Source: Arenicola marina (taxonomy: Eukaryota > Annelida > Polychaeta > Arenicolidae). Taken from it: 64,000 nucleotides of DNA. The translations under genes and the position numbers were made by a program. The notes under the pieces are model-generated. The model had not been told where the DNA came from. It saw only the letters and a list, made by a program, of their open reading frames with translations, and ran no database searches. The stretch is from NCBI GenBank assembly GCA_964019135.1, contig OZ025258.1:15531771-15595770 (forward strand), given 5' to 3'. Below, one piece after another: positions 1,286 through 62,754 of the stretch (position 1 is the first letter of the stretch; the number at the start of each line of letters is the position of its first letter).

Positions 1286-1570
1286 GCTAACGTAAACCAA
1301 AAAACAACCAATCTAACCATGATAAAACGTTAAACTAACGTTTACATGCTATCTGGGGTAACCATGGCAAAATACCATATACATGTATTATCCTATTATA
1401 TCCTGAATGTATTTCTTTGTTTTACTTGTATTGAATTGAATGCAAGGGCTCTAGGGGCCAGGGTATTAGCCGGTGTTTGTTTGCCATCCAAAAGCGTTCC
1501 CCCGCCCCTTGGACCCTCCACTGGGCTACAAACTGTATCTTTGCTAGTGAACATTAATATAAGGTTTAAA
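1286..1570. other. Spacer without recognisable gene
   Basis: Short AT-rich sequence between two repeat fields. The phrase CATGCTATCTGGG occurs near 1347 and again near 1987, so the intervening repeat field may be bounded by a short direct repeat. Confidence 0.4.
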
Positions 1571-1985
1571 TAACGGTTCAACCATGGTTAGATAATGGTT
1601 AGCATTTAACGTTAAATAGTGAGCATTAATATAATGTTATTGGTATAACGGTTCAACCATGGTTAGCATTTAACGTTAATCTTTGATTTAACGGTTTAAA
1701 CATGGTTAGATAATGATTAGCATTTAACGTTAAATAATGAGCATTAATATAACGTTATTGATATAACGGTTCAACCATGGTTTGCATTTAACTTTAAACA
1801 TTAATTAATATAACGTTTTTGATTTAACGGTTCAAACATGGTTAGATAATGATTGGCATTTAACGTTAAATAGTCAACATTAATATAACGTTAAGTCAAT
1901 GAGCAAAAAAATAGTTTCTTAACGTTCGTCTAAAACGTTGCATTAACGCTACTGCAAACGATAATTTAACGTTAAGTTAATGTTG
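1571..1985. repeat. CCATGGTTAG / TTTAACGTTAA repeat field
   Basis: Several degenerate copies of a block containing TAACGGTTCAACCATGGTTA and CATTTAACGTTAAA occur near 1571, 1647, 1689, 1765 and 1825, in direct orientation. Copies differ by internal gains and losses. AACGTT is self-complementary, so the region is rich in small hairpins. No coding potential was recognised. Confidence 0.7.
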
Positions 1986-1990
1986 GCATG

Positions 1991-2345
1991 CTATCTGGGT
2001 AGAACTCGTTTGTCGTTCACTTTAATCTCAAGCCAAACACTTTCAGTAATCATATCTTCCAAGTCGTGACGTCGAACCGAAGCTACCTCATCCTTCACGT
2101 AAACCATAACACCACCGCCACGTGTCGCCCTGTCGTGCCTGTGAACGTGATATTCGGGCAGGTCAATTAAATCATTAACAATATCCCCATTTAACCAGGT
2201 CTCGGACACGCCTATAACATCGAATTTGTCATCCAATACATATGACTGGTACATTTCATCTAGTTTCGTACACTGTTCACCGAGAGGCGCAAGGGTTCCA
2301 CTGCGATCACTGAGAAGACTCCAGGCGTTAAAGTGACATACACTG
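1991..2345 (-). mobile_element. LINE fragment, APE endonuclease domain
   Basis: The minus strand encodes a recognisable N-terminal endonuclease of a CR1/L2/Rex-type LINE. A segment reading CHFNAWSLLSD leads to KLDEMYQSYVLDDKFDVIGV, then SETWLN, the central metal-binding Glu block of APE-type LINE nucleases. This continues to a DRATRGGGVMVYVKD block and a DL-ESVWLEI end. Only about 115 residues remain. The catalytic C-terminal part and the reverse transcriptase are absent, so it is a dead fragment. The family call rests on motif order and is not a search result. Confidence 0.85.
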
Positions 2346-3059
2346 AAATCCTTTGATGGTATTACCGCGGGACATAATTGATATAAATGTAAATAGTTAT
2401 TACAATAATTCCGACTCCCATTTGCTTGGTAGTTCTTATAGAACTGTCACCTGTCTTGTAGCAAAAGGTCTGGTTTGAGCAAGAAACCAATATAATTAAC
2501 GTATATACAAAAACATAACAATGCAGAACACAATTGATAATTGAATAACCAATATTCATGTTTGTATAACATATCGTATCTGGGCCTTGCAGCCTATTGA
2601 GACATAAAACATTTTGTTGAATAGATAATAGTAAATAGTAAACAAATGGCGCTGTGCCACCATTAATATAAGACTTTAAATAACAGCTGGAGCTTGCACT
2701 CAGTTCGAGTGAGTAAACAACTACTCACGTTGGGGCCATGTCCACATTACCACCACCATAAATGGCAAGACTCACAATATCAACGAGAGCTTGCACTGAG
2801 TTCAAGTGGGCAACACTTGCCCAACTAATGACATCGTCACAAGGGCAGCGGAACCCGGTACAGTGGCAATTAAGCACTCTTATTCGTTTTATCCATGGCG
2901 AGTTTCTTGTCCCACAGAGCCATCGCTGCCTCGACCGCTTTTTCGATGATGCTGGTAGATTCCCGGAGTGGCGTCTTGTTGACCGTGACGAAGACGGTGA
3001 TGTTGGTGGCCGATGGATGTTTCGCTTGTATAAGTTTGACGACGGAGTGACAGCTTTTC
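2346..3059. other. Gap with no recognised gene
   Basis: AT-rich spacer up to about 2700, then moderately GC-rich sequence that is open on both strands at 2725-3060. I recognise no domain in either translation. The part next to 3060 may be the decayed 3' end of the neighbouring LINE. Confidence 0.4.
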
Positions 3060-4960
3060 TGTGATTCACATTGGTGATATCCTTTAAATACAGTTCTGGT
3101 TCTAGCAAGAATTGAAATTGCACTAACGTATCAATTTTACTGCACTCGTTTAATCCGCTTAGCCACTCGTGTTGAGCCACATCATTTATTCTCTGACTAA
3201 ATTTACTAATAAACATTTCAACATTCCCACCTCCTGAGTTATCCAACTAATACCAATTTACCTAGTATATAGAGTGTTTTTGACGCCGGTAGCGTCTGGA
3301 GTTATCTGGAGTTATCCATCCTTAAAAAAATTACACCAATATTTTATAACTCGTTAAATGGATAATACCAAGGATAGTGCATAATTATACACTATCCTTG
3401 ATAATACTTTGATGGGCCTTCTTTCACATTCCCCCATGGCAGCTACATTGGCAGTTTGACCAGGTACTTGCAGGATGCGCTTGCAAAATCTGGTTTGAAC
3501 CGGTTTAATACAGTCATGAGTACTATTTCCCCATATTTCACTACCATATGTCAATACAGGAATAACCATTTTATCAAAAAGCCTCTAATAGTCTCAATAT
3601 CAAAAATGTTTACCTGCCTTGCCACTTGTAATATAAAGGCAACCGTCCTATCGGCCTGTAGATCGAGCCAGGGTTTTCTGTGTCCAGTTCAATCGACTGG
3701 AAAAATCTATTGTATGTATGTATTTGTAATAAGACACAGCTTCAACTTGTTTCCCGTCCAGCTACTATTTCTCATTATCTTTAACTACACCTCCATTTGT
3801 AAAAAACATGACCTTTGTCTTCGCGAGATTGACTGACAGTCCCCATTTACTGCAGAAATTTTATAAACCATCAATAAGTGTTTGCAGTCGACCTATAGTA
3901 TCACTTATTTCATTTAAATTGTCTGCATACAATATAACACATACATTGCCAAATTGTTTATCTATGTAACTACCGTTTTTCCCAGTCTTAAGTACTGAAT
4001 TAACATAAATAATAAATAACAATGGGATGACGAGGCAGCCGTTTGGTATAAACTACCGTATCGAAATAAGCAGAGATACCTTCGCTTGTAGCCTCAACCG
4101 AGTTTAGTTTAGAATTACCGTGCATATGCCTGAGTCAATCATATACCCAAGCAATTTTGATTAACAGAATCAAATGCTTTACTAAAATCAAGAAATATAC
4201 AGTAAAATCTGGTCGATTTTCCACACACGTCTTACACTGGGCTTCATGTGATTATAGATCATAAGGCTTCCAGCAGGTGTTTGCATCGTTTAAATTCTGT
4301 TTGAGTTTTAATGTTTTTCGTTCCTGGTATTCACTATGAAGAAGACTATTACACAAGTTATTATGTTGGCGTTTGGCTTCAATGTATTTAGCAAGACATT
4401 ATTCACATTTTCTCTTTCTAAATACAGCAGGTGCTTCTTCTTTAACACTTCTTCATTCATTTCCACCATGGTTGCGTTTTCCTTCCCACTACCCCCATTC
4501 CCTTTTTATTACAGAAGCCAAGTATTTATATAAATTGCCTCTTGTAGTTTGTTCCCTGCAAATTATTACTGACCACCTCTTGCTTGAAATGCTGTACCAC
4601 TTCTCCACACTGTAAATCAAACTGTCTGCCACACATTGTTTTACAAAATTCAGGTTTCCAAATATATCTTTCCCGCATAGACATTTGCTCGGGACGGAAC
4701 TGAGTTACTTCTGCTTTCACTGATAGCTTCACTGGGAAATGATGGAATAAATCATCTTGTACAACCACTAAATCTGTAGATCCGACTCCTGCCAACAAAA
4801 CCAATGTCACATAATACATCTTCTATTTCGTGACCTAGCTGGAGCTGCCCAAGTCTCTTGAAATGCTACAATATCCACATCCTTCACAATGTCGGATATA
4901 TCCTGAAAATGATTTGTCACCTTACCCCTAAACCCTTCAATGTTCTATGACAGGACATTC
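3060..4960 (-). mobile_element. Decayed LINE (endonuclease + reverse transcriptase)
   Basis: Reading the minus strand from 4960 downwards, domains appear in LINE order but in shifting frames. An endonuclease start resembles NIEG-RGKVTNH and leads to VAFQETWA near 4860. The endonuclease end HHFPVKLSV lies near 4730. Reverse transcriptase motif A, LDFSKAFDSVN, is near 4180. The VIPLLFIIYVN and LYAD blocks lie at about 3920-4040, with ADN in place of the usual ADD, and are followed by KWGLSVNLAKTKVM. A post-RT segment VIPVLTYGSEIWG is at 3354-3569, and a C-terminal tail with LNECSKIDTLVQFQFLLEPE is at 3060-3246. Stops, frame changes and a shortened middle show it is inactive. The endonuclease is close to the fossils at 50.9 and 58.6 kb but has the opposite orientation. 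Confidence 0.85.
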
Positions 4961-5100
4961 ACCTTTCGATAGTCGGTAATCATAGATTGTGTAATATTAA
5001 TAGCTGAATTCCATAAACAAGAATATTCATCCGTTCATACTAAGAGGAAATGTGTATACAATTAAGCACACACAAATGTCTACGCTTGGATGCGGTTCAA

Positions 5101-6489
5101 TTAAGGAAGAGAGGCATGTCCACGAGTCGGAAATGAATACGCTGGATTAACGAACACTTCATTATTAGCGCAATCCTTCGACTTGCAAAATGCCTTGAAG
5201 TCGTAACGCGCCGGGAAGTAGCCATGTTGTAGGACAAGGTCCCGGATATCCTGGTCTCTGTCGTGACCCATTTCTATCATAATGACGTAAACCGGGATGT
5301 CCCAGTCCATAGTCTGGAGCACAAGAAACTCGGCACCCTCCACATCGAGGCTCAGCAGATCAACATGGCGAATGTCTGCCTCGCGCAGGTAATCGGCTAG
5401 AGGGCGACATGGGACGTTCACTTGCTTGTGGCCCTCGGGAATCCACCGCTTCTCGTATTGTGACGTCATCTGGCTCTTGTCACCACCGGTGGCTAGGGGT
5501 TTGTTCTTGTTATCTCTGTAGACCATCGTCACGTTGGTCTGTCCCGCAGGGCAGACGGCGCCGAAGAACTTCCGGGACCGTGGACGCCCTTTGCGTAGCA
5601 TGGCGAAGTTATCCGGATTGGCTTCGATGAGTAAGCCGCGCCAGCCTAAGGTATCCTCATAGAACTTGGTGTTGCTGTACAGGACGCCATCCACTGCGCC
5701 CAGCTCGACAAATGTACCGTTACAGACGACGGGGTTGCCGAAATACAAGTTCAGAAGAGTCCAATCCTCGTTGCTCTGACTATAAAACTTTCGCTTCTTT
5801 GCCTCAGGTATTTTGCAATCTAAAATGCCAAGGAAAGACAATACAATTTGTTTATTAATCATGCCATGCCATATCATATCATATCATATCATATCATATC
5901 ATATTATATCATATCATATCATATTATATCATGTCATATATCATATATCATTAAAGCAATTGCACATGTCGAGTTCGATGCTATACAGAGATGTCAAAAT
6001 GAGAGATATGTCGAATTAAACTAATCGTATGTACAAATATTTGCACATGTGTGTAATTACTTGGAGATGTCCAAATGAATTAATGATACGTGCAAATACT
6101 CAGAGATACATGTGCAAATGAGCAAAGACAATTTTTAGAACATTAATTGCCTCTAACATATCTGAACATACATATTCATCAACACAACTATCGTATACAG
6201 TTTCGTGGCTGTATCCAGGATTTAGAATTGTCCTACTGCATATAGACAAACACCGTGAACAAATGACGACTGAGAATTTACCAGATGTGACTTCAGTGTT
6301 AACAAATGGCCTACGTATCCGATTGAGGTCAACTATTGGGCGTTGAATCAGCGCGAGCATATCTTCAGTAACCAGTGTCTTCTGCATAGCATTGCGATAG
6401 CATAATGGTCCAAACTCCCAAAACGCGACAAGCAAAAGGAAGGCAAATATGGTGGATGAAGTCGCGACTATTTTAACGCAGCTAGTCAT
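5101..6489 (-). CDS. FkbM-family methyltransferase, copy A (two exons)
   Basis: Exon 1 is 6489-6282 and exon 2 is 5819-5101, joined across a 462-bp intron with donor GTAAAT and acceptor TTTTAG. The phase-1 split codon restores one 308-residue frame. Residues about 10-27 are a hydrophobic helix after a short N-terminus containing lysine, predicting a type II membrane protein. The FkbM methyltransferase fold follows. YSQSNEDW is at 82-89. The SAM-binding motif FVELGAVDG is at 106-114, LIEANP at 133-138 and LLSLDVEGAE at 224-233. NGT (103) and NVT (165) are possible N-glycosylation sites, consistent with a lumenal domain. FkbM enzymes methylate hydroxyls on small molecules or sugars, but the substrate here is unknown. 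Copy A differs from B/C by six residues in exon 2 and by small indels after the membrane helix. It has no intronic SINE. Its upstream region is interrupted by the Polinton-like insertion 333 bp from the start codon, so its promoter may be affected. Confidence 0.88.
5865..5952. repeat. (ATATC)n microsatellite in intron A
   Basis: A pentanucleotide tract, mostly CATAT/ATATC, lies just inside the intron of gene A next to the acceptor. The same tract is longer in B and C, so it is a fast-changing intronic repeat. Confidence 0.9.
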
Positions 6490-6815
6490 ATTTCTGGACA
6501 GCTTTGCTACCTTTGCTTTCGTTCCAGCAGCTATAGTTCAATAATATACTCCCAACAATACACAACCTGTTTACACACCTTGCTATCTTTTTTTTTGTGT
6601 GTGCAAAACTTCAAAAGGAGACTATTATATGCGCATATGGTTGTGGTGGGGGGGGGACTCCAGTAAAGACTGAGAGAGCGGATATTTCTATAAATGTAGT
6701 AGCCCCCGGCCGGTGGTAAAAGATGATCTACCGCCGCTGTAGATTGGATCAAAGTCCATTTACTCGTCGACTCGGAAAACGCCTTCTGGGGACTGATCGT
6801 AATCTCTGATTAGTA
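6490..6815. other. Upstream region of gene A
   Basis: The 5' flank of copy A is homologous to 54535-54949 (B) and 62150-62570 (C), apart from a 79-bp block present only in B and C. It contains a poly-G run near 6648. No TATA box or other promoter element can be assigned with confidence. Confidence 0.5.
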
Positions 6816-6821
6816 GATAGC
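6816..6821. repeat. 6-bp target-site duplication, left (GATAGC)
   Basis: GATAGC immediately precedes the left terminus AGTAGTATATGG of the Polinton-like element and is repeated immediately after its right terminus. Copies B and C have a single GATAGC at the same place with no insertion. Confidence 0.93.
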
Positions 6822-6872
6822 AGTAGTATATGGTGAGCTTTTTGCTACCCCCATGACCCCCTCACTCCTCCC
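6822..6872 (+). repeat. Left terminal inverted repeat of the Polinton-like element
   Basis: The first roughly 50 bp pair with the last roughly 50 bp of the element (21215-21264), apart from a few changes. The repeat runs from AGTAGTATATGGTGAGC into a C-rich stretch containing TGACCCCCTCAC. Confidence 0.88.
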
Positions 6873-7432
6873 CCTCCGAGATGATATTTCCGTGGATTGG
6901 TGGTCTGTTGCAATTCTCGATCTATGGTGTTTGTCAATGTCTGCAACATCTTCCAGCGGGTTGTGATGAAATTGACACCCACTTTTGTAGGGTAATCACG
7001 GCCGTTGTCTTGACACACCCACTTTCTAATATCAAAGCGTAAAACGTCTTTGAAATACTGAACAGTTAAATAGACATTTTCTCCGATGCACTCTTGACAG
7101 CGTATATCGTGAGTTTGCTCGGAAGTACACTGCGTATTCTCCCATTTTCTTTTCTTGGCCAGCGGGATGAGTGGTAGCCGATTGGAGGGAGCGAAGCCCG
7201 CTGTTGTCTTGTGGGAAGTCATGTCGTTGTGGTGAAAAGATGGAGACCGCCCGTACATTATATTGGCAACGCCCCCCCTCCGCCTCCTCGTCATCCACCC
7301 ACTTGGGACGTGTCTGAACATGCTTTGGCGAGGTGTAAAAATAGCATCACGACTGACGTCATACATCGGCGTGGCTTTGTCATCTGTTTAAAGATAGACA
7401 GAGAGGGGCGTGGCCAACGGGCTTTGTACGCA

Positions 7433-7536
7433 CGGGTAATCGCTGTAAATGAGCGATCAATCACTTTTTTAATCCCAACAACTCAAGCCCGCGTTATAAT
7501 AAGACTGAGTCGCTTCATTACGTTTTATAATAATTG
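7433..7536 (-). promoter_or_regulatory. TATA-bearing module, left-arm copy
   Basis: Mirror copy of the module at 19247-19346. On the minus strand it carries TATAAAACG followed by GAAGCGACTCAGTC. It lies just outside the partial PC4 gene of this arm and points at it. A promoter role is inferred from position and the TATA box. Confidence 0.4.
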
Positions 7537-9199
7537 GTTCATGCACTACTGTGTGTGAATTGTGAGATTGATGTTAAAGGTCTCAGAAAAGGGCCGTGGA
7601 TGTTTTAAAACTCATCAAAATGCTTCCTTTGTGAAAGAGCGGTGACTTTAAGGACTTGTCTGCGAGCGACAGATGTTTCGTGGTCTTTGTCTTGATATGT
7701 AGAGTTGCAGCGACAATTATTTATTTTCGGTCGGTTATTTTTTTAAATGCGCGTTTGAATTCACCGGTGGGAGGGCAGTGAGTCGAGCCCGCGGGCGCGC
7801 GAGCGCGCTGGTCGGTGGGGGCGGGGCTTCGACCGAGACAAATATCGATTTTTTTTTCCAAGCCCCTCAACACAGCACCCGCTGGCCGTCACGACCTAGT
7901 GATTTTCAAAAGTTCGGGCGAGCCAGCGAGCCAGAGTCAGCGGAGCGTCATGTGGTTTTTGGCGGGGTATTGGCCGACGGTCTGTGTACGCACAAGTTTG
8001 GGAGTGTCGCTGTGATATATTGTGAAATATCGGAAGGAATAATCACCTTAATTTTAGTTTCGGTTGTAACATTATTCAACTGTCGCCGATGTAATAAGGA
8101 TGCATCTATAAACGTTCGAACAAACAAGTCGTGGAGACAAGCGCCCGGTTGGCGTCCTTTTGTCGCGAGGGAGAAGAGTTATGACAGTTGTTTGATGAGT
8201 CAGTCTATTATTTCGATAGTAATAAGCGGGCTTTATGCTCTTCACCTCAGGTATTATTTATCTGCAAGCCATTAGTACGTCGGCCGGAAAGGTCAATGGG
8301 TTAACCTCTTTAACAACCACCCGTGGGTATTTCATTATACCTTCCCCTCCTAGATAACTAGGCGTGGCAGCTGGTTACTATGTGGTGGCAGTAAAATTCA
8401 CTGTTGTATATGATACGAGGCGTCATTGTGTACTGATGGAAACATAAGAAGCTTGTGTTATAGGTCCACCCTTCCCCCTGCCCCCCTTTCTCTCCCCCAT
8501 CTATTCACTGACGATTCTGAACACGTGACTCCCATGCTACACCTGCCCTCTTCGATGCAGTTTTAAAATCATAATGGAGTGAATGGTGACGTCATTGACA
8601 TTTAGTCATCTGTTTGTTCAGGACCTATATAAAACGGGAGAGATGAGTTAATTGGTTGTTTCTTTATGTTGGCAACCCCTTGACCTCTGTAGCCGACGTT
8701 CTGTTTGCTTGCATATGCATCCAAAAGAAGGTAGGGAGGGTGAAGGATATAACATCAATCGCCTATGTCATTGCTATACACGTTCTTGGGGAGTGTCTGT
8801 GGGTTTTTTATTGCATTGGAGTTACCAATGTTACGAGCACCCCACATCCGACGGTACGTTTAAACGAGTTTGGGGAAAGAGCGACTGGCTCCCTCCACCT
8901 CCATACACCATACACTCACAATATTCCTATTAGGTTATTTTGCTGTTACTCCGTCAAGTGAAAACTATTATGGTGCATGACCGCTTTTCTAGTTCATTAA
9001 AAGAAGCAGTTGCATTTGCTTGTGACATCTGCAACCAACGTCGCATTCATATAACTCATACACCGTTAAAGGAATTATTCTGTAAGTTTGAACATTGTTA
9101 CTCGTTAAGTCAGTGTAAAGTAACATATATGTTAAAAATGTATTGTATTGAACTTTATTTGTTTTTATTGCACTTTTAAAAGCAGCTAAAGTAAAAACA

Positions 9200-12072
9200 C
9201 ATACTAACATAAATTTTACCAACAATAACCGTATCCATCCATGTCAAGGAACGTAGTCAACAATTAACTTTAGCGTAATTTAAATAACTCACAAATTTCA
9301 TATGTCACCACGTCACAACTCATTCCTAGGTTTCAACAAGACTTTAAACCATTTGCAAAAGTGATTATAAAAGTGAATGCATCAACTTTAAAAATGATAT
9401 TTTACGTATTGTATGTATGAAGTATTCGTTTTCCGTCACGTGTTTATATATTTTTTAAACTATCAAGTGTTACAGTAACACAATAAGTTATGCATGTATC
9501 ATATATTTGTGAAACATCTATTTACCTTATTGCAATACGTCTAGGTTTACACATACACTTACAACTATGCAACTAGTCTTGTAGAATGTCATGTTTCATA
9601 AAGTTAACAAGTTATTGAATCAACAGATTGACGCGTGTTACGCGTGCGTGTATCGCGAATGTGAACTGAATTAAAAGTCGTCATCACGTTAACGAATTAG
9701 GAAGTGAGTATAAACACTGCCATGTAATTTTTAGTGAGTAGCATTTGCGGTAAAAGAACTTCGCTATTGAGATAGCGTTAGCAACAGGCAAGTACTAATT
9801 CCACACAATCATGACAAGTTCTTAAATTTTATTTAGTGAACATTGCAATTCCAAAAACAACGATATTTGTGGTGACAACATATCTGCAATGAAGTAAGAG
9901 AGAAGTAATTAGACATAAAAAATAGCGAAGCCAACGTGATGTATGTGCGAATTTAATGAATTGAATTCACCGGTATAATCAGATACATTCTAAACTACGG
10001 TGCGTAGAGAAGTATTGAATAGACTCATGACTGCCAAGAGTTTATCAAATGAATAACATTTGGAACATAACACAATATATGGATAATATAAACCTAATAC
10101 TTTTGATTACAATACAACTCACGCGAGTATTCTGAGAGAACATGTTGTAAACGGAATAAATCATCAGTTTGTAACCATACAAAGAGATGAATGAAACATA
10201 TCATTTACTTTATCTCGTAACATACATTCTAAACTTAGAAAGAGGATCGTATTAAGTAGTTGTCATAGCAAACACTAACATAAACATAACGAATGAATTA
10301 TCTGTCTTTTTTGGTATATCTTGGTGCAATGTATAACGTATCTAACTCGTGTTTTCTCTCTGCGTAGAAGGTATGTCAAAACTGTGAGTATGTATCCTCT
10401 TTTTTTTTATACATCAAGAAGTTAAACAGATAGAATAGAATTCTCATGAGTTGTGATGTCAAGGACAATGAATCAGTATTCAGTTTGGTTTTATTACACA
10501 TATCCCAAAACAGTTTTCTTACTCTTACTCAACCAGATTATGTAGGAATGTATGGTAATGTAATTTTTAGAACCCTTAACTTCCTACATGAATTGATACT
10601 TCTAGTATCTAATTAATCTTACCTTAAGCTATCCTGAAAGAAATTTCAGGGTCCACTCGTCTCCTGCGAGAATGTAACAATCTGTTTAGTTGATTTATAA
10701 CATTTAGATTTTATCTACATGAAACGAATGCTTATTTTTTATTTTTAAACTATTAACATTCGTACTGAGTTTAACTCATTTTACTTACCACTCTCTTTCC
10801 TCTGGCGCACAGTAAACCGTTATACACTTACACCTATGACTAGTTACAAATGGAAGTATTAATAAAGTTAACAAGTTATTGAATCAACAGATTGACGCGT
10901 GTTACGCATGTGTATATCGCGAACATGAAACGTTTGATCCGCAAGTGCCATCACGTATGATATGTTAACTGGTTGGGTGGACACATGTGAAACCAAAAGG
11001 TAGAATTCTGTCAGTTACATGCCGTCATCGAGTTTGTTACATTCGTGTAATTTGAAAGACAACGAAGAAGAAAGATGTCACTTTTTGTATTCAACATAAC
11101 ATCAAGTTTATACTTAATGTAACATGTGTGAAATAAATATCATGTCACATCTATGTACTCAATAGTCAACCGCAAAAGTAAAAAGCTGTAAGTATTGTGT
11201 GTGTGTATTCACTGTAACATATGTCTGTGGATAGTAATCATTTGCATACGATTTTACTTATTGTAGATGACACAACGATGAATAACGTGTTCATGCTAGA
11301 TATATAAAAACATACACCTCCGTTGAACGAACGGTGTACGAGAAAATTAAATGACTTGTAAATAATATAGATGTGATCCGTACTACACATGTGTCACAAT
11401 TGACATGATCGTTTGATAGAACAACTATCGGTCTTGTCTTTTTCAAGTGAAGTAAATCGGGTTTGCAGACTCTTAAGAAAGTAACCGAGTGCGTAATACA
11501 ATATATATATTTAATGAAGTAATATTTTTGGGAAAAGAGTCGTTATATAGTTTCGCTGTATGTTAACATACTTGAACACAAGAAAACGGTAACAAAAGTT
11601 AATGAATGATTGAATGCGAATATTTTCTTTGATATGTTTTGGATGAATTAGTTAACATTAATGCTACTGACTAACAACAACAACCACGGGAACCACCATA
11701 ACCATAATATCGCCAACTGTTTGAGTCAAAGGACAAAGTGTGCATGTGAAAACTTGTTTTATAAATGTAATGGTAATACCAAAGATCTCTATACATCTCC
11801 AATGCGACATGAGTCACGATTAATGTTTTGAAGCTGCAGTGTTTTTATATTAAATCGAGTTCACGTAAGCACAGTCAGCAGTTTTGATTATATGGTTATC
11901 AATGTGTTTACATTTGTATATGTATATCGCATCAGTCAGTCGGTAAACAACGTGGACTGTAAAAAATCACACCAGAAAAGGGTGGATGACAAACTTTCAG
12001 GAAAACGATATGTTTGTAAGTTAACTTCTGAAGCGTGGTGAGCTGTATCGGACAATGCGGCAGCCCTCGACA
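9200..12072. other. AT-rich non-coding part of left arm
   Basis: About 2.9 kb without a convincing open frame on either strand. It contains two copies of a 65-67-bp sequence (9600-9666 and 10864-10928) including GATTGACGCGTGTTACGC and TATCGCGAA. Another shared phrase, CATACACTTACA or TATACACTTACA, lies just upstream of each, so the stretch seems partly built from an old internal duplication. No function can be assigned. Confidence 0.6.
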
Positions 12073-12246
12073 GAGCACTGAATGTGATAAACCTGCAAAG
12101 AACTTACACCCTCACAAGATTTCTGTTGGTTGACTGCTGCATTCGAGCAGAGTATGCGTAAATAAATATAGGTGTTACGATATTACTGCGTTACGTTAAG
12201 GGGGGGGGGGGGTGAAGAAATACGATGGATTTCAGATTAAATACCG

Positions 12247-12252
12247 TTTATT
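12247..12252 (-). terminator. AATAAA polyadenylation signal
   Basis: AATAAA on the minus strand, 77 bp beyond the stop of the proline-rich core gene. Its placement suits the 3' end of that gene or of a shared transcript. Confidence 0.45.
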
Positions 12253-12274
12253 AACATCAAGAATATATAGTTTA

Positions 12275-12277
<3 letters not shown>

Positions 12278-12320
<43 letters not shown>
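12278..12320. repeat. (TA)n(CA)n microsatellite
   Basis: An alternating TA run that passes into CACACA, in the core of the Polinton-like element. Confidence 0.95.
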
Positions 12321-12328
12321 TAAAATGA

Positions 12329-13042
12329 TTATATATATGGATCCAGCGGAGTATCCAATTGAATAAGTTGCATTAAAATATCGTCTTCAGAGCACAGTGG
12401 AGGATATGGGGACGGCGATCTAGGCGCCGCAGTTCCGGGTGCACCTGGGCGATTTCTTATAAAGATCCGTTGTGGTTCGTCCTCTTCATCCGACGAAATA
12501 GTGATTACTTCTTGTCGGCGCAGGACTCGCCCGATCGGTATCTCCAGTTGTGTGTTTTCGCCTCGCCGCAATAAAGTTGGAGATGGCGTCGGCGAGGGCA
12601 TCCTACTTTCAATAGGGAGGCGGCGACCTCCCTCGTAGGCAAGACGGATGGCTGCCGGGAACTGGTCTGGAGCTGGCGTCGGCGAGGGTATGCTACTTTC
12701 GATGGGGAGGCGGCGACCTCCCTCGTAGGCCAGACGGATGGCTGCCGGGAACTGGTCTGGAGCTGGCGTCGGCGTGGGTGTGCTACTTTCGATGGGGAGG
12801 CGGCGACCTCCCTCGTAGGCCAGACGGATGGCTGCCGTGAACTGCTCTGGCCGCAGGATGAGGAAGGGCGGCTGGATTTGTGCAATTTGCTGTGGTTGTC
12901 CAGTTGACAAACCGATTCCGGGGAATTGTTCGAGTGGACACGGCTGGTGATATTGACCGTCTTGGTCATCCATGCCTGTGTATGCACCGTTACTGTAGCT
13001 AAACATACCGGACCCGGTGAACCAATTGTTGATTGGTGGCAC
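12329..13042 (-). CDS. Proline-rich triple-repeat protein with SIM-like motif (fossil element)
   Basis: A 237-residue open frame in the core of the Polinton-like element. Residues about 66-150 hold three near-identical repeats of roughly 28 residues built around QFPAAIRLAYEGGRRLPIES, separated by short PTPTPA linkers. The repeats are also near-identical in DNA, so they arose recently. Further on, VITISSDEEDE matches the classic SUMO-interaction pattern of a hydrophobic core followed by acidic and serine residues. The C-terminus is acidic and Leu-rich. The protein looks disordered. I do not recognise the family. Minor virion or regulatory proteins of adenovirus-like elements are possible roles by position only. 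It lies 70 bp downstream of the zinc-ribbon-like frame on the same strand, so the two may be co-transcribed. Confidence 0.55.
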   Translation of the reverse strand: MPPINNWFTGSGMFSYSNGAYTGMDDQDGQYHQPCPLEQFPGIGLSTGQPQQIAQIQPPFLILRPEQFTAAIRLAYEGGRRLPIESSTPTPTPAPDQFPAAIRLAYEGGRRLPIESSIPSPTPAPDQFPAAIRLAYEGGRRLPIESRMPSPTPSPTLLRRGENTQLEIPIGRVLRRQEVITISSDEEDEPQRIFIRNRPGAPGTAAPRSPSPYPPLCSEDDILMQLIQLDTPLDPYI

Positions 13043-13112
13043 TTCTTGACAGCGAACACGAACTATTTACGTTGTGCTATTTAACCAATATGACGTGAAG
13101 TGCCGCACAGAG

Positions 13113-13460
13113 CTAAAAATCGCACTGACCACAGGTACGATAGTAGTGGTTCTGTTCCCACCACTGTTTTTTACCCTGGGTCAACGCTCTTTCTCGCTCT
13201 AGAACTGAACACTTACAATGCCAGAGCGCCCATTGAGAGGCACTACTATATGGTTTTTTCGAGCACCGAAATAGATGACCAGACTGTCTGGCCGGCGTGT
13301 TTCTGACAATAGCGTTACACCATCGACAATAAAAATACGGTTCACCTGGATCGATGACGTTTGTTTTCAAACCGTGGCACTTGATACAGAACCAGCTGGA
13401 TGGCAGCTCTTCCGGTGGTGGGGGTAGATATTGTCGAACAGCGGCGGTACTGTCTGTCAT
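13113..13460 (-). CDS. Small Cys-rich, zinc-ribbon-like protein (fossil element)
   Basis: A 115-residue frame on the minus strand with paired cysteines: CIKC, CRWC, CSK, CKC and CGQC. The first two pairs flank about 20 residues (FCIKCHGL and YFYCRWCN), a spacing typical of a zinc ribbon. The last CGQC sits at the very C-terminus. I do not recognise a named family. It precedes the proline-rich frame in the same direction. Whether it is expressed is unknown. Confidence 0.5.
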   Translation of the reverse strand: MTDSTAAVRQYLPPPPEELPSSWFCIKCHGLKTNVIDPGEPYFYCRWCNAIVRNTPARQSGHLFRCSKKPYSSASQWALWHCKCSVLERERALTQGKKQWWEQNHYYRTCGQCDF

Positions 13461-13569
13461 ATCTTCTTATTTTCATTCTTCGTGCGTTTCGTGTAACTAC
13501 CGGTATCATCAGACAAATTGTCAAGTTGTCCTGACTATAAAATCCGGGGGCCCTTATATACACCCACAA

Positions 13570-14025
13570 CCACCTACGCCCCCCCCCCCCCCCCCATGGA
13601 AGAGCACACGCAGTAATGGCTTTGTCTCACCTCCCCCGGTCTTGTGCAGGGCCTTCTGCCGGGAGAGGGTGAGAGGGGACGACAGACGGGCAGTTTTTTA
13701 TGTTGAAGAGGTTAACCAATCCACCTCCCTGTCCGACTTAATAATAACAATGTTGAACGACCGTTTTTGACTTTACCAACCTTCTGCATTGTTCAGGGCA
13801 ATCTAGCGGGAGAGGATGTTTATGTTAAAGAGGTTAACCAATGCACCTCCCTGGTCAATAAAATCTTATACCAAATGTTCATTTGCAATACAGACAACTG
13901 TATTACTCTATTTCATAGTTCACCGCACGTTGATCCATAACTTAAAGATAATTGCAGCCATCTGGTCATCATCTCTACAGCTGCTCGAGCTTGTATTGCA
14001 CTGTATTGCATGGATCCGCGAACAA
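13570..14025. other. Core spacer with direct repeats
   Basis: A poly-C run lies near 13580. Two direct copies of a block containing GAGGTTAACCAATNCACCTCCC occur near 13703 and 13823, each preceded by a GGGAGAGG patch. The same GTTAAAGAGGTTAACC phrase occurs once in each arm (near 8299 and 18546). No coding signal was recognised. Confidence 0.55.
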
Positions 14026-14131
14026 GTTATAATAAAACGCAGTGAAGCGACTCAGTCGCATTATAACACGAGCTTGAGGGTTGTCGGGGTTAATAGAGTA
14101 ATTGGTCGCAGGCTCATTTACAGTGATTATC
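14026..14131 (+). promoter_or_regulatory. Diverged third copy of the TATA module
   Basis: It resembles 19247-19346 over about 100 bp. Shared words include GTGAAGCGACTCAGTC, TTATAAC, GCTTGAG, GGTTAAT or GGATTAA, and CTCATTTACAG. Its similarity to the arm copies is much lower than that of the arms to each other, so it is an older duplicate. Confidence 0.5.
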
Positions 14132-14790
14132 TCCACCTACGGGGCAGATGACGGAATGGGGGGGGGGGGTGAAGATATAGTGAGTATGTGGGAAGGGGAG
14201 GGAGTGAGAGGGCAGGTGGTTCACGATGGACGTTATAGGGGGCGTGGAGTAGGTGTGAGATGCGGTGACCTTGGCGTCACCGAAGCCTAACGGTGGGGGG
14301 GGGGGCGCCTACATCCCAACTCAAATTTACGGTTGCCGCCCGTCCACGACCGTCCACTGACACTTTTCAGGCGTTTCGATAGAGGGTGTTAGCCGCCGGG
14401 GAATGAATTTACAGTTTAACCGAGAAATCACCCAGGTCCAACCGACACACTAAATAAATATCACTAAACATGATTTCAGAATTTGTGTAGATCCATACGG
14501 TGCGATCCGCGCAACGATACTTTTCAAACTCATCAGATTACAATTAACAATACCTTTTATATGCTGAATCACTATAGTTTGTTAAAGATACTTTACATCA
14601 CCTGTTTAGCAAGGTTCTACATATAGATTACTACAACACCATCAATAGTGAGTTATTGGATTGTTCATTTGATGTTTAACTTCACAGAAATCAACAAACA
14701 TTATACATAAATTTAAATATTTTACTACAACTAGATCTATCATCATTACATAAATCAGACCTAGTACGTAATGTGAGCGATAACTGAAAA

Positions 14791-17630
14791 TGTCGAGGGC
14801 TGCCGCATTGTCCGATACAGCTCACCACGCTTCAGAAGTTAACTTACAAACATCGTTTTCCTGAAAGTTTGTCATCCACCCTTTTCTGGTGTGATTTTTT
14901 ACAGTCCACGTTGTTTACCGACTGACTGATGCGATATACATATACAAATGTAAACACATTGATAACCATATGATCAAAACTGCTGACTGTGCTTACGTGA
15001 ACTCGATTTAATATAAAAACACTGCTTCAAAACATTAATCGTGACTCATGTCGCATTGGAGATGTATAGAGATCTTTGGTATTACCATTACATTTATAAA
15101 ACAAGTTTTCACATGCACACTTTGTCCTTTGACTCAAACAGTTGGCGAGATTATGGTTATGGTGGTTTCCGTGGTTGTTGTTGTTAGTCAGTAGCATTAA
15201 TGTTAACTAATTCATCCAAAACATATCAAAGAAAATATTCGCATTCAATCATTCATTAACTTTTGTTACCGTTTTCGTGTTCAAGTATGTTAACATACAG
15301 CGAAACTATATAACGACTCTTTTCCCAAACATATTACTTCATTAAATATATATATATTGTATTACGCACTCGGTTACTTTCTTAACAGTCTGCAAACCCG
15401 ATTTACTTCACTTGAAAAAGACAAGACCGATATTTGTTCTATCAAACAATCATGTCAATTGTGACACATGTGTAGTACGGATCACATCTATATTTTTTAC
15501 AAGTCATTTAATTTTCTCGTACACCGTTCGTTCAACGGAGGTGTATGTTTTTATATATCTAGCATGAACACGTTATTCATCGTTGTGTCATCTACAATAA
15601 GTAAAATCGTATGCAAATGATTACTATCCACAGACATATGTTACAGTGAATACACACACACAATACTTACAGCTTTTTACTTTTGCGGTTGACTATTGAG
15701 TACATAGATGTGACATGATATTTATTTCACACATGTTACATTAAGTATAAACTTGATGTTATGTTGAATACAAAAAGTGACATCTTTCTTCTTCGTTGTC
15801 TTTCAAATTACACGAATGTAACAAACACGATGACGGCATGTAACTGACAGAATTCTACCTTTTGGTTTCACATGTGTCCACCCAACCAGTTAACATATCA
15901 TACGTGATGGCACTTGCGGATCAAACGTTTCATGTTCGCGATATACACATGCGTAACACGCGTCAATCTGTTGATTCAATAACTTGTTAACTTTATTAAT
16001 ACTTCCATTTGTAACTAGTCATAGGTGTAAGTGTATAACGGTTTACTGTGCGCCAGAGGAAAGAGAGTGGTAAGTAAAATGAGTTAAACTCAGTACAAAT
16101 GTTAATAGTTTAAAAATAAAAAATAAGCATTCGTTTCATGTAGATAAAACCTAAATGTTATAAATCAACTAAACAGATTGTTACATTCTCGCAGGAGACG
16201 AGTGGACCCTGAAATTTCTTTCAGGATAGCTTAAGGTAAGATTAATTAGATACTAGAAGTATCAATTCATGTAGGAAGTTAAGGGTTCTAAAAATTACAT
16301 TACCATACATTCCTACATAATCTGGTTGAGTAAGAGTAAGAAAACTGTTTTGGGATATGTGTAATAAAACCAAACTGAATACTGATTCATTGTCCTTGAC
16401 ATCACAACTCATGAGAATTCTATTCTATCTGTTTAACTTCTTGATGTATAAAAAAAAAGAGGATACATACTCACAGTTTTGACATACCTTCTACGCAGAG
16501 AGAAAACACGAGTTAGATACGTTATACATTGCACCAAGATATACCAAAAAAGACAGATAATTCATTCGTTATGTTTATGTTAGTGTTTGCTATGACAACT
16601 ACTTAATACGATCCTCTTTCTAAGTTTAGAATGTATGTTACGAGATAAAGTAAATGATATGTTTCATTCATCTCTTTGTATGGTTACAAACTGATGATTT
16701 ATTCCGTTTACAACATGTTCTCTCAGAATACTCGCGTGAGTTGTATTGTAATCAAAAGTATTAGGTTTATATTATCCATATATTGTGTTATGTTCCAAAT
16801 GTTATTCATTTGATAAACTCTTGGCAGTCATGAGTCTATTCAATACTTCTCTACGCACCGTAGTTTGGAATGTATCTGATTATACCGGTGAATTCAATTC
16901 ATTAAATTCGCACATACATCACGTTGGCTTCGCTATTTTTTATGTCTAATTACTTCTCTCTTACTTCATTGCAGATATGTTGTCACCACAAATATCGTTG
17001 TTTTTGGAATTGCAATGTTGACTAAATAAAATTTAAGAACTTGTCATGATTGTGTGGAATTAGTACTTGCCTGTTGCTAACGCTATTTCAATAGCGAAGT
17101 TCTTTTACCGCAAATGCTACTCACTAAAAATTACATGGCAGTGTTTATACTCACTTCCTAATTCGTTAACGTGATGACGACTTTTAATTCAGTTCACATT
17201 CGCGATACACGCACGCGTAACACGCGTCAATCTGTTGATTCAATAACTTGTTAACTTTATGAAACATGACATTCTACAAGACTAGTTGCATGGTTGTAAG
17301 TGTATGTGTAAACCTAGACGTATTGCAATAAGGTAAATGGATGTTTCACAAATATATGATACATGCATAACTTATTGTGTTACTGTAACACTTGATAGTT
17401 TAAAAAATATATAAACACGTGACGGAAAACGAATACTTCATACATACAATACGTAAAATATCATTTTTAAAGTTGATGCATTCACTTTTATAATCACTTT
17501 TGCAAATGGTTTAAAGTCTTGTTGAAACCTACGAATGAGTTGTGACGTGGTGACATATGAAATTTGTGAGTTATTTAAATTACGCTAAAGTTAATTGTTG
17601 ACTACGTTCCTTGACATGGATGGATACGGT
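14791..17630. other. AT-rich non-coding part of right arm
   Basis: Mirror of 9.2-12.07 kb, with the two copies of the GATTGACGCGTGTTACGC-type repeat at about 15930-15994 and 17192-17258. No gene was recognised. Confidence 0.6.
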
Positions 17631-19246
17631 TATTGTTGGTAAAATTTATGTTAGTATGTGTTTTTACTTCAGCTGCTTTTAAAAGTGCAATAAAAACAAA
17701 TAAAGTTCAATACAATACATTTTTAACATATATGTTACTTTACACTGACTTAACGAGTAACAATGTTCAAACTTACAGAATAATTCCTTTAACGGTGTAT
17801 GAGTTACATGAATGCGACGTTGGTTGCAGATGTCACAAGCAAATGCAACTGCTTCTTTTAATGAACTAGAAAAGCGGTCATGCACCATAATAGTTTTCAC
17901 TTGACGGAGTAACAGCAAAATAACCTAATAGGAATATTGTGAGTGTATGGTGTATGGAGGTGGAGGGAGCCAGTCGCTCTTTCCCCAAACTCGTTTAAAC
18001 GTGCCGTCGGATGTGGGGTGCTCGTACCATTGGTAACTCCAATGCAATAAAAAACCCACAGACACTCCCCAAGAACGTGTATAGCAATGACATAGGCGAT
18101 TGATGTTATATCCTTCACCCTCCCTACCTTCTTTTGGATGCATATGCAAGCAAACAGAACGTCGGCTACAGAGGTCAAGGGGTTGCCAACATAAAGAAAC
18201 AACCAATTAACTCATCTCTCCCGTTTTATATAGGTCCTGAACAAACAGATGACTAAATGTCAATGACGTCACCATTCACTCCATTATGATTTTAAAACTG
18301 CATCGAAGAGGGCAGGTGTAGCATGGGAGTCACGTGTTCAGAATCGTCAGTGAATAGATGGGGGAGAGAAAGGGGGGCAGGGGGAAGGGTGGACCTATAA
18401 CACAAGCTTCTTATGTTTCCATCAGTACACAATGACGCCTCGTATCATATACAACAGTGAATTTTACTGCCACCACATAGTAACCAGCTGCCACGCCTAG
18501 TTATCTAGGAGGGGAAGGTATAATGAAATACCCACGGGTGGTTGTTAAAGAGGTTAACCCATTGACCTTTCCGGCCGACGTACTAATGGCTTGCAGATAA
18601 ATAATACCTGAGGTGAAGAGCATAAAGCCCGCTTATTACTATCGAAATAATAGACTGACTCATCAAACAACTGTCATAACTCTTCTCCCTCGCGACAAAA
18701 GGACGCCAACCGGGCGCTTGTCTCCACGACTTGTTTGTTCGAACGTTTATAGATGCATCCTTATTACATCGGCGACAGTTGAATAATGTTACAACCGAAA
18801 CTAAAATTAAGGTGATTATTCCTTCCGATATTTCACAATATATCACAGCGACACTCCCAAACTTGTGCGTACACAGACCGTCGGCCAATACCCCGCCAAA
18901 AACCACATGACGCTCCGCTGACTCTGGCTCGCTGGCTCGCCCGAACTTTTGAAAATCACTAGGTCGTGACGGCCAGCGGGTGCTGTGTTGAGGGGCTTGG
19001 AAAAAAAAATCGATATTTGTCTCGGTCGAAGCCCCGCCCCCACCGACCAGCGCGCTCGCGCGCCCGCGGGCTCGACTCACTGCCCTCCAGACAAAGACCA
19101 CGAAACATCTGTCGCTCGCAGACAAGTCCTTAAAGTCACCGCTCTTTCACAAAGGTAGCATTTTGATGAGTTTTAAAACATCCACGGCCCTTTTCTGTGA
19201 CCTTTAACATCAATCACACAATTCACACACAGTAGTGCATGAACCA

Positions 19247-19346
19247 ATTATTATAAAACGTAGTGAAGCGACTCAGTCTTATTATAACGCGGGCTTGAGT
19301 TGTTGGGATTAAAAAAGTGATTGATCGCTCATTTACAGCGATTACC
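19247..19346 (+). promoter_or_regulatory. TATA-bearing module upstream of the PC4-like gene
   Basis: TATAAAA at 19252-19258 precedes GTAGTGAAGCGACTCAGTC. The PC4-like frame opens about 160 bp further on. The module occurs three times in the element (both arms and the core), each time next to or facing coding sequence, which suits a reused promoter. The promoter call is inference. Confidence 0.45.
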
Positions 19347-19414
19347 CGTGCGTACAAAGCCCGTTGGCCACGCCCCTCTCTGTCTATCTTTAAACAGATG
19401 ACAAAGCCACGCCG

Positions 19415-20188
19415 ATGTATGACGTCAGTCGTGATGCTATTTTTACACCTCGCCAAAGCATGTTCAGACACGTCCCAAGTGGGTGGATGACGAGGAGGCG
19501 GAGGGGGGGCGTTGCCAATATAATGTACGGGCGGTCTCCATCTTTTCACCACAACGACATGACTTCCCACAAGACAACAGCGGGCTTCGCTCCCTCCAAT
19601 CGGCTACCACTCATCCCGCTGGCCAAGAAAAGAAAATGGGAGAATACGCAGTGTACTTCCGAGCAAACTCACGATATACGCTGTCAAGAGTGCATCGGAG
19701 AGAATGTCTATTTAACTGTTCAGTATTTCAAAGACGTTTTACGCTTTGATATTAGAAAGTGGGTGTGTCAAGACAACGGCCGTGATTACCCTACAAAAGT
19801 GGGTGTCAATCTCATCACAACCCGCTGGAAGATGTTGCAGACATTGACAAACACCATAGATCGAGAATTGCAACAGACCACCAATCCACGGAAATATCAT
19901 CTCGGAGGTTTGGTGATGGCCGAGGTCCTGCCCCGTGGCCAGTTTCTAGATATTCGAAAATACTGGTTGCCGGATACACAAGATACGCCCGTGCCGACCC
20001 GAAAAGGAATTACTCTCGATTTAAAGCAGTGGAATTTACTTAAGTTCCATCTCAACACGATCCATGATAAGTGTGTTCCGGAACTCACCGAGTTGGTTGA
20101 TTGTATGTCATCTCACCAAAATCAGGAGGGGTACTTTGACTGTGTTGAATGTTACCCGAAAGGTTTGGATAAGATACATCTATCCTAA
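19415..20188 (+). CDS. Tandem PC4-like ssDNA-binding domain protein (fossil element)
   Basis: A 257-codon frame with two PC4/p15-like folds. The second (about residues 162-225) is the clearer: FLDIRKYWLPD, an acidic loop, then PTRKGITLDLKQWNLLK, which is the PC4 pattern of a DIR-YW strand followed by KGI-L---QW--L. The first (about 95-152) repeats it in weaker form: LRFDIRKWV, KVGVNLITTRWKML. A basic KKRKWE patch near residue 71 could be a nuclear signal. An internal Met at residue 49 is an alternative start. PC4 proteins bind single-stranded DNA and act in transcription or replication. Such a role in element replication is inference. A partial copy lies in the left arm (6874-7366). Confidence 0.7.
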   Translation: MYDVSRDAIFTPRQSMFRHVPSGWMTRRRRGGVANIMYGRSPSFHHNDMTSHKTTAGFAPSNRLPLIPLAKKRKWENTQCTSEQTHDIRCQECIGENVYLTVQYFKDVLRFDIRKWVCQDNGRDYPTKVGVNLITTRWKMLQTLTNTIDRELQQTTNPRKYHLGGLVMAEVLPRGQFLDIRKYWLPDTQDTPVPTRKGITLDLKQWNLLKFHLNTIHDKCVPELTELVDCMSSHQNQEGYFDCVECYPKGLDKIHLS

Positions 20189-20222
20189 ATGTTTATGTAT
20201 CCACTAACCAATTCGTGCCTAT

Positions 20223-20504
20223 GTGAACCTTAAACACTTGGAATATTTTATTCAACAACCCATGAGAGCGGTGTGGCAGTCACCTGGCACAGATGTATGC
20301 GGAGAATACTGTCTATTTTACTTATATTTCAAATGTCGAAATTACTCCATGTCACGAATCTATCGAGAGTATTGGTCTCCACACACCATGTGCAATGACA
20401 ACTATATTCATAATTTCCAATCTGTTCACTTTCCGCGTATCACTCGCCGGCAGTCCCCGCGTTTTATGCAAACCGCGTGCAAGACCTCTTTACCCATTGT
20501 CTAA
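20223..20504 (+). pseudogene. Adenovirus-type (adenain-like) protease, partial fossil
   Basis: A stretch of about 93 codons contains QSPGTDVCGEYCLFYLYF, the signature around the catalytic cysteine of adenain-like proteases of Polintons, adenoviruses and relatives. A Ser/Arg-rich region and CNDNYIHNFQS follow, matching the usual C-terminal pattern. Only part of the protease is recognisable and it is treated as broken. With the 6-bp duplications, it is the best protein evidence for a Polinton relationship. Confidence 0.65.
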
Positions 20505-20611
20505 ATTGTCATGTATAATAATATGATATGAAGGTGTATATTTTTGTGATACTAAGTTTTTGACCACGATAGATGTTGTAGCGGGTAAAGGTATTCATGT
20601 AGTGATATAGG

Positions 20612-20617
20612 AATAAA
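20612..20617 (+). terminator. AATAAA polyadenylation signal
   Basis: AATAAA about 110 bp after the protease fragment, well placed as the 3' end for the plus-strand PC4/protease region. Confidence 0.5.
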
Positions 20618-20769
20618 AACTTTTCAAAATGGATGATTGTATTTGCGTTAATATGGTTTACTCGAAACATATCCTATGGTTTTTACAAACAAACAAACAT
20701 ATTACACAGCATATAGGATCTCACATGGCCTGTTCAACGCAAACATTGATTATATACACGTGTCATTGA

Positions 20770-21190
20770 CGATTAATCGTACTGTAACGCGAGAATATAC
20801 AGTTTACATGGCGATATGTATAGCGATTAAATGATTTACTTTTTCATCAAAGCAAAATGACTTGTTCATCTATTACCTATTCATAATAGTACTTGATCGC
20901 AGATTGAAGACTTCAAACAATGATTAATGACATAGTTAACACCTTCATTGCCTCTTCCACCACCCATGTCTTCTTCATTCACTCGTACTATAGCACGAGA
21001 ACATAAGACACACAATGATTAATAACCTTGTTGAATATACCTATTTACATACTAATTTATGCTAATTATACCCCGTGCTATAGCACGGAAACAAAGACTT
21101 TTGACAAAAATTAATGACCTCATTAACTCGTGAGCGGGCATTTTCAAACCGATATTTCAAAATTTTCGGTCGCGCTATAGCACGACCAAA
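20770..21190. repeat. Subterminal palindromic repeats of the Polinton-like element
   Basis: CTATAGCAC-centred palindromes recur at 20984-20997, 21073-21088 (perfect, 16 bp) and 21168-21187, about 90 and 97 bp apart. A degenerate forerunner is near 20788. Phrases such as AATGATTAAT or AATTAATGAC plus GTTAAC or ATTAAC sit between them, so this is a tandem repeat of about 90-100 bp next to the right terminus. Confidence 0.75.
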
Positions 21191-21264
21191 GGGGGGGGGG
21201 GGAGGGGGGGGGGGGGAGGGGTGAGGGGGTCACGGGGTTAGCAAAAAGCTCACCATATACTACT
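21190..21264 (-). repeat. Poly-G tract and right terminal inverted repeat
   Basis: A long G run with two interruptions (21190-21220) passes into GTGAGGGGGTCACGGGG and ends in GCTCACCATATACTACT, the inverted partner of the left end. Confidence 0.88.
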
Positions 21265-21270
21265 GATAGC
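21265..21270. repeat. 6-bp target-site duplication, right (GATAGC)
   Basis: Exact partner of 6816-6821. It is followed by GCATTGGGCTAAACG, which continues the flank as in B (54951 onward) and C. Confidence 0.93.
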
Positions 21271-54805: not shown

Positions 54806-54943
54806 AAGACTGAGAGGGCGGATATTTCTAATAATGTAGTATCCCCCGGGGTAAAAGATGATCTACCGCCGCTGTAGATTGAATCAAGGTCGATTTAATC
54901 GTCGACTCGGAAAACGCCTTCTGGGGACTGGTCGTAATCTCTG

Positions 54944-54975
54944 ATTAAAAGATAGCGCAGTGGGCTAAACGAATG
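54944..54975. other. Empty target site of the Polinton-like element, unit B
   Basis: CTGATTAAAAGATAGCGCAG continues without interruption through the point where unit A carries the 14.44-kb element. This is the pre-insertion state with a single GATAGC. Confidence 0.9.
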
Positions 54976-62425: not shown

Positions 62426-62754
62426 AGAGGGCGGATATTTCTAATAATGTAGTATCCCCCGGGGTAAAAGATGATCTACCGCCGCTGTAGATTGAATCAA
62501 GGTCGATTTAATCGTCGACTCGGAAAACGCCTTCTGGGGACTGGTCGTAATCTCTGATTAAAAGATAGCGCAGTGGGCTAAACGAATGCGGTAGCCGCAA
62601 ATGACCGTCGTAAATCCGTATCTTAGTGCCCCTTGCAGTGGGAGGTGTACGGCTTTGAATCCTGTGCTCTCTTCGCGCCTGTTGATCTTTGGACCACATA
62701 ACATTGTACAATGGCACAGGCAGTGGGTGTGGGTGAGGGGGGTGGGGGGCTTAT

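Follow-up and report, generated by a model that had tools for sequence, protein, structure and literature searches.

We found that a 14.4-kb insertion in the genome of the polychaete Arenicola marina has the ends of a Polinton (Maverick), lacks detectable core genes and is built as a giant palindrome in which both ends appear to be the same Polinton end. The element occupies positions 6822-21264 of a 64,000-nucleotide stretch (C11:15531771-15595770; "the window", to which all positions refer unless another locus is named). We favor the reading, at a probability of about 0.77, that it is a non-autonomous Polinton that arose by terminal transposition, in the manner of a defective genome, and was then amplified in trans.

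The near-palindrome is formed by 6873-12072, which pairs in inverted orientation with 19908-14791 (5202 columns, 97.8% identity with gaps included; 99.1% and 99.3% in the main blocks) around a central loop (Table 1). Aligned blocks of the two arms diverge by about 0.6-0.9%; a 74-bp indel (7696-7769) and a deletion at the left end also set the arms apart. TRF (Tandem Repeats Finder) at a score of 50 detected no tandem arrays in the arms except a poly-G tract near the right tip (21191-21229); a motif of about 110 bp occurs twice per arm, its copies 83% alike and not in tandem. Beside the tip, the left arm is shorter by about 1.3 kb than the right arm and by about 1.45 kb than sister copies at other loci, and about 150 bp found in the sisters are missing from the window copy at 20206/20207. 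Because the other copies keep the outer stretch plus these 150 bp, we take the window copy to be the deleted one. The poly-C of the left tip passes straight into arm sequence, CCTCCGAGATG, and this poly-C/CCTCCG junction near 6871-6877 is consistent with a microhomology deletion.

In each arm, an open reading frame (ORF) for a PC4 protein (transcriptional coactivator p15) reads toward the tip, and the arms continue inward as Polinton left ends do; on this arrangement each arm is a left end, and the two come from one and the same (PC4) end of a Polinton. We scanned all 21 ORFs of at least 90 aa that overlap the element against Pfam, reporting rve matches at E up to 1, and only the two PC4 ORFs exceeded a Pfam cut-off. 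There was no match to DNA polymerase B (PF03175) in these ORFs or in the window, and none of the 21 ORFs matched the rve integrase or a packaging ATPase. The only trace of a protease in the element was a probable C-terminal fragment at 20208-20504, and capsid proteins lay outside the reach of the profiles used, both for this copy and for the polB-type relatives. The longest stop-to-stop ORF in 6822-21264 is 264 aa. Judged by this gene content, the window copy is non-autonomous.

A previous sequence-only reading of the window had proposed a Polinton-like insertion bounded by GATAGC, with the uninterrupted target preserved in two sister units. Both points were borne out. The GATAGC copies lie at 6816-6821 and 21265-21270; AGTAGTATATGGTGAGCTTTTTGCTA and its reverse complement form the element ends directly inside them, and the two tips match each other exactly, in inverse orientation, over their outermost 26 bases. 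Sister units B and C each contain uninterrupted CTGATTAAAAGATAGC, a few bases from where the empty sites had been placed, and the target in unit A, which carries the element, reads CTGATTAGTAGATAGC (2 mismatches to CTGATTAAAAGATAGC). Searching the window for the target pattern at up to 3 mismatches gave 3 matches (chance mean 0.36; 0/100 shuffles reached 3). When the flanks of the element in A were joined, 134/145 columns of the left 150 bp were identical to B and likewise to C, and the right 134 bp gave 120/126 columns with B and 104/109 with C (with a 17-bp gap among others). These alignments extend right up to GATAGC on both sides; over 300 bp per side, the comparison that had been suggested as a check, 392/450 aligned columns were identical with B and 375/414 with C, long gaps appearing farther out. 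The sequence data thus support an insertion into unit A that is younger than the split of A from B and C, and the exact ends, 6-bp duplication and relative timing read earlier from the window all stand. Units B and C closely resemble each other (96.9% identity over 849 bp), so their empty sites are not independent witnesses and may record one ancestral empty site.

The same ends were found elsewhere in the genome, where the sequence-only reading had proposed to look for other copies. In nine elements seen at both ends (the window copy, C12a, C2a, C2b, C18, C7b, C1, C14 and C2auto), with tips located by patterns starting AGTAGT, perfect 6-bp duplications adjoined the AGTAGT/ACTACT tips in eight; in C2a the duplication CACATG/CATATG agreed at 5/6 bases.

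We fetched ten other arm-bearing loci from the 867-Mb, 762-contig genome. Five of them (C12a, C2a, C2b, C18 and C7b) carried a long arm at both ends. The whole loop was present in C12a, C2a and C2b, the last with a 3.4-kb interruption within one arm; C18 kept part of the loop only, and about 2.5 kb of other sequence replaced part of the loop in C7b. The arms of C2a (307-6594 and 9777-15948) are about 6.2 kb each. C1 (L015, C1:63961500-63968400) is a 6.3-kb loop-free derivative with unequal arms joined directly and a perfect duplication, GCTACA. C14 is a polB-type element, and in C10a, C10b and C7a the fetched stretch contained the tip-side arm of one end alone. In all four sisters whose sequence was printed (C12a, C2a, C2b and C7b), the loop joins the right arm via an identical 51-bp spacer, and the C18 alignment has a gap of the same size. 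Because the printed sisters have this loop/arm junction in common, the simplest reading, and the one that the sequences suggest, is one founding event followed by amplification. Loop orientation on the contig strand varies among copies; we rejected loop inversion as a separate event, since with inverted arms it is equivalent to a reversed whole-element insertion. C10a (L016:5744-8908) and C10b (L018:5671-8835) each contain, at the same place, a 1055-aa ORF whose first and last residues agree between the two; the one in L016 matches reverse transcriptase and endonuclease, and the two loci look like segmental duplicates with a retroelement insertion.

We then looked at the polB-type Polintons of the same genome. 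A PF03175 search returned 32 places, every one of which exceeded the curated cut-off; the 14 control genomes gave none. One element, C2auto (C2:1511860-1526850), has a 1204-aa polB ORF (DNA_pol_B_2, 26.4 bits), rve (46.3 bits) and Chromo (32 bits) matches, PC4 above cut-off and an ATPase-like ORF below cut-off. Its left end is 94.9-97.5% identical to the outer arm in the main blocks, and its 1.3-kb terminal repeat also takes in part of the PC4 gene at the other end. C14 and C2auto both have a PC4 ORF near the left end, reading toward the tip. Two further elements follow the arm and loop of the window copy with some gaps, C18auto over about 8200-12856 and C5auto over about 8785-12856, and in both the polB-type ORF begins about 70 bp beyond the point equivalent to 12856 (C18auto, C5auto and C2auto are labels and imply no activity). 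Since same-genome relatives share the ends and carry polB and rve, and given the (AGT)2//(ACT)2 termini and the 6-bp duplication, membership of the Polinton/Maverick order is supported by the sequences, as is the Polinton-like identity proposed at the outset.

The loop and polB classes were then mapped across the genome. A 1931-bp loop query gave 428 candidates, of which the best 40 were scored, the window copy included. These are at least 40 places, with a second piece at one of them; 22 span the whole query and six (the window copy and five others) have long arms at both ends. No polB hit, of the 32, came closer than 20 kb to any of these best 40. Two exact tip types had 26 and 59 genome matches (reversed control pattern, 0). 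Within 16.5 kb inward of these 85 tips, 31 had one of the best 40 loop places and 15 a polB hit, and each tip type was found with both classes. Sixteen pairs of tips faced each other less than 25 kb apart; eight enclosed a loop, four a polB hit, none both and four neither, one of the last being the frame-broken polB-type C14. The two ends of C12a have different tip types. Its left outer arm (equivalent to 6990-7680) differs from the C14 left end by 0.15% (about 1/690 columns) and from its own right outer arm at 16/690 columns. Because of these mixed tips, and of a left arm nearer to C14 than to its own partner, we infer from the sequences that the two classes exchange ends, as C12a indicates.

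The 117-aa ORF lies in the loop part 12857-14790, as does the start of the 245-aa ORF (Table 1). Elsewhere in the genome, at C9:40.79-40.87 Mb, C7:28.42-28.44 Mb, C3:21.3-21.6 Mb and other places, this gene pair has diverged relatives (roughly 70% and 50% identity), many with open frames and some of them in arrays, with a spacing of about 8.5 kb on C9. Those compared by eye had no PF03175 match nearby, and the relatives may represent a separate element class from which the loop came.

In the scenario that we favor, polB and the right end of an ancestral Polinton, with the integrase, ATPase and capsid genes and most of the protease gene, would have been lost. An inverted copy of the outer left ~6.2 kb would have taken their place and made both ends left ends, through terminal transposition, or through strand snap-back, of a linear molecule that carries inverted terminal repeats. 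The retained tips would let the polymerase and integrase of polB-type Polintons in the same genome replicate and insert the element, with 6-bp target duplications, and the founder would then have spread. The window copy would have entered unit A after the separation of A from B and C and lost, at some stage, 1.3-1.45 kb beside its left tip. Because a multi-copy class without core genes has normal tips and target duplications, mobilization in trans by proteins of polB-type elements is probable, and the element probably depends on these fuller relatives. The founding mechanism and replication as linear DNA are likewise proposals. A farther-reaching version, which we consider tentative and on balance unlikely, is a Polinton satellite akin to a defective-interfering genome: with two origin ends it would compete with or modulate its helpers, recombine ends, and retain the PC4, 117-aa and possibly 245-aa genes for that.

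Several observations weigh against this scenario. No transposition was observed, and no intact helper was seen: in C2auto the stretches for ATPase and integrase are broken up among several ORFs, the polB match of C5auto contains a stop, and polB of C14 is frame-broken. In the four polB-type elements fetched, the matches to loop sequence 12857-14790 are all short, so the founder is not a simple deletion of any of these. The PF03175 search omits C14 (14.7 bits), and it could likewise overlook a polymerase close to a loop if that gene were diverged or broken. For 39 of the 85 exact tips, the 16.5 kb on the inward side hold no scored loop and no polB hit. The 51-bp spacer is missing from the window copy, the arms of which extend 454 bp farther into the loop than those of the sisters. 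Nor are arms consistently nearer within an element than between elements: own arms were nearest in 4/4 elements over 10250-11600, in 3/5 over 8400-10100 (the window copy and C12a being the exceptions) and in 1/5, with one tie, over the outer 6990-7680. The founder may also have arisen by chromosomal recombination.

In one form of such recombination, stepwise gene conversion or recombination between terminal repeats on the chromosome would have lengthened the arms, and no linear replicating form would be involved. The variable length of the terminal repeats (about 1.0 kb in C14, 1.3 kb in C2auto and about 6.2 kb in the sister copies) and the farther reach of the window arms into the loop fit this account. 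Against it, the common junction of the printed sisters resembles one event followed by amplification, and the loss of the whole right gene block would be simplest as a replacement by a left-end copy; we hold the stepwise route to be a doubtful one. The arms could also stem from two separate Polinton insertions or fragments that lie head to head and never formed a single mobile unit, as the opposite orientation of the two left ends would allow. However, a single 6-bp duplication brackets the whole unit, the five other long-arm loci have bracketing duplications of their own (four perfect, one with 5/6 bases), and all four printed sisters share the loop/arm junction, which makes such a composite very improbable.

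Fold-back of long reads can yield false inverted duplications in an assembly, and the palindrome could be one of these. However, the two arms differ in sequence, by the 74-bp indel and by the left-end deletion, and the same architecture recurs at other loci with target duplications of their own, so that we give an assembly artefact hardly any credence. The very long inverted repeats around a short loop also recall Foldback-type elements (FB, Galileo and Tetris) with no relation to Polintons. Foldback elements have long inverted repeats composed of internal tandem repeats; the arms here are not internally tandem-repeated, the poly-G tract near the right tip apart. The ends, the PC4 gene and the arms are common to Polintons with polB and integrase, the tips are AGTAGT with 6-bp duplications, and no transposase of another superfamily was seen in the elements fetched. 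Long inverted repeats are likewise a main feature of Galileo (PMC3573991) and Tetris (PMC4079207), of which Galileo belongs with P elements (PMC3573991) and neither is given as a Polinton in the parts of these papers drawn on here. An unrelated Foldback origin is therefore highly unlikely. The 6-bp duplication, the AGT-type inverted ends and the common descent with elements that carry polB and integrase place the element in the Polinton order, where we class it as non-autonomous and as a new structural variant.

Polintons are considered to replicate as linear molecules with a protein primer. As of a survey of vertebrate Mavericks, viral particles had not been observed; intact elements measured 12.7-24.6 kb, had terminal repeats of 46-1,447 bp and bore 6-bp target duplications and (AGT)2//(ACT)2 ends (PMC8097293). 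The window element resembles these in end motif, duplication length and size, and its genome also houses relatives with polB and integrase, whereas the terminal repeats of its sister copies reach about 6.2 kb, above the range given there (PMC8097293). It further departs from known Polintons in having the same Polinton end twice and, in the window copy, no polymerase, integrase or ATPase detected by Pfam.

If a linear DNA with inverted terminal repeats loses one of its ends, that end can be restored by copying from the other. The window structure fits the product of such a loss and restoration. In poxvirus outbreak genomes, up to 18,200 bp are reported to have been duplicated to the other end of the genome, with up to 16,900 bp deleted where the copy was inserted, and the inverted terminal repeat to have grown from 6400 bp to as much as 24,600 bp (PMC10230479). 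Here too, one end would have been copied to the other, the receiving end deleted and the inverted repeats lengthened; poxviruses, however, are a different virus group, and the window element has no core genes and exists as a chromosomal insertion (PMC10230479 for the viral case). A possible further parallel is kalilo, a linear protein-primed plasmid. By its title, a study of a kalilo deletion derivative describes hairpin and duplex DNA forms (Vierula and Bertrand 1992, cited in PMC11071308); kalilo differs in being a mitochondrial plasmid of fungi. In the open-licence literature we found no paper on adenovirus inverted duplications, and no non-autonomous Polinton with kilobase inverted arms stood out there; one may exist in print elsewhere. 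If our reading is correct, an integrated family that matches a terminal-transposition or snap-back product is a chromosomal record of a linear Polinton stage, and Polintons can carry multi-copy passengers that are not autonomous. With the empty sites and shared tips, mobilization in trans can be tested.

Table 1. Positions of the element, its parts and the empty sister sites in the window.
Feature	Position	Strand	Details
Left target-site duplication	6816..6821	+	GATAGC
Left terminal tip	6822..6877	+	Inverse of 21209-21264; 57-column alignment including one flank base, 93%
Left-arm copy of PC4 ORF	6845..7387	-	Truncated by left-end deletion; one PC4 match (PF02229, E 1.7e-6)
Left arm of giant inverted repeat	6873..12072	+
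Central loop	12073..14790	+	2.7 kb
245-aa loop ORF	12329..13066	-	30-aa internal repeat (90-bp DNA unit); stretch VITISSDEEDE; no Pfam match
117-aa loop ORF	13113..13466	-	Cysteine-rich, zinc-ribbon-like by eye; no Pfam match
Right arm	14791..19908	-	Inverse of left arm
264-aa PC4 ORF	19394..20188	+	Two PC4 matches (PF02229, E 1.3e-15, 2 stretches)
Outer part of right arm	19909..21208	+	At both ends in sister copies; gone from left end of window copy
Probable cysteine-protease ORF, C-terminal fragment	20208..20504	+	C-terminus same as L027:1700-2284
Right terminal tip	21209..21264	-
Right target-site duplication	21265..21270	+	GATAGC
Empty target site, sister unit B	54941..54956	+	Uninterrupted CTGATTAAAAGATAGC
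Empty target site, sister unit C	62554..62569	+	Uninterrupted CTGATTAAAAGATAGC

The protease assignment comes from L027:1700-2284, which matches Peptidase_C5 (E 0.0053, below cut-off) and protease S273R (E 0.018) weakly; in polB-type elements the cysteine-protease ORF overlaps the terminal repeat. Taken alone, the fragment in the window copy had no Pfam match. The loop ORFs gave no PHROGs match of note, and PDB sequence searches with the 117-aa ORF and with the supposed capsid ORF of C14 returned nothing useful. A single-sequence fold of the 117-aa protein had a mean predicted local distance difference test score (pLDDT) of 41.7 and was not used. The stretch VITISSDEEDE of the 245-aa ORF is one that we take to resemble a SUMO-interacting motif.

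We compared nonsynonymous and synonymous polymorphism (pN/pS) in the small genes; the pooled figures carry no proper error, as copies share ancestry. For the 245-aa ORF, pN/pS was 1.00 pooled over 6 copies, and 0.93 and 1.10 between the window copy and two polB-type relatives. This ORF is stop-free in 17/19 full-length copies at ≥98% identity, and with a pooled value of 1.00 its intact frame does not prove function. For the 117-aa ORF, in which 5 copies showed few changes, the value was 0.60, and 18/19 full-length copies at ≥96% identity are stop-free. The PC4 ORF gave 0.69 pooled over 25 rows, of which 2 have a stop and 19 gap columns and at least two duplicate a place already represented (L007/L020 and L008/L026). 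We make no case for selection on the small genes from these figures.

Each of the sister units in the window also carries a minus-strand ORF of 260-265 aa (5101-5883, 52646-53443 and 60326-61123); the ORF in unit B, the sole copy scanned, matches the FkbM methyltransferase domain (PF05050, E 7.6e-19). A 36-bp C-rich minisatellite lies at 22278-49497 in A, 55576-57181 in B and 63699-64000 in C, where it ends at the window edge. Its length differs greatly among the units, from 1.6 kb in B to 27 kb in A, where 762 copies with a GC skew of about -0.68 give a strong strand asymmetry.

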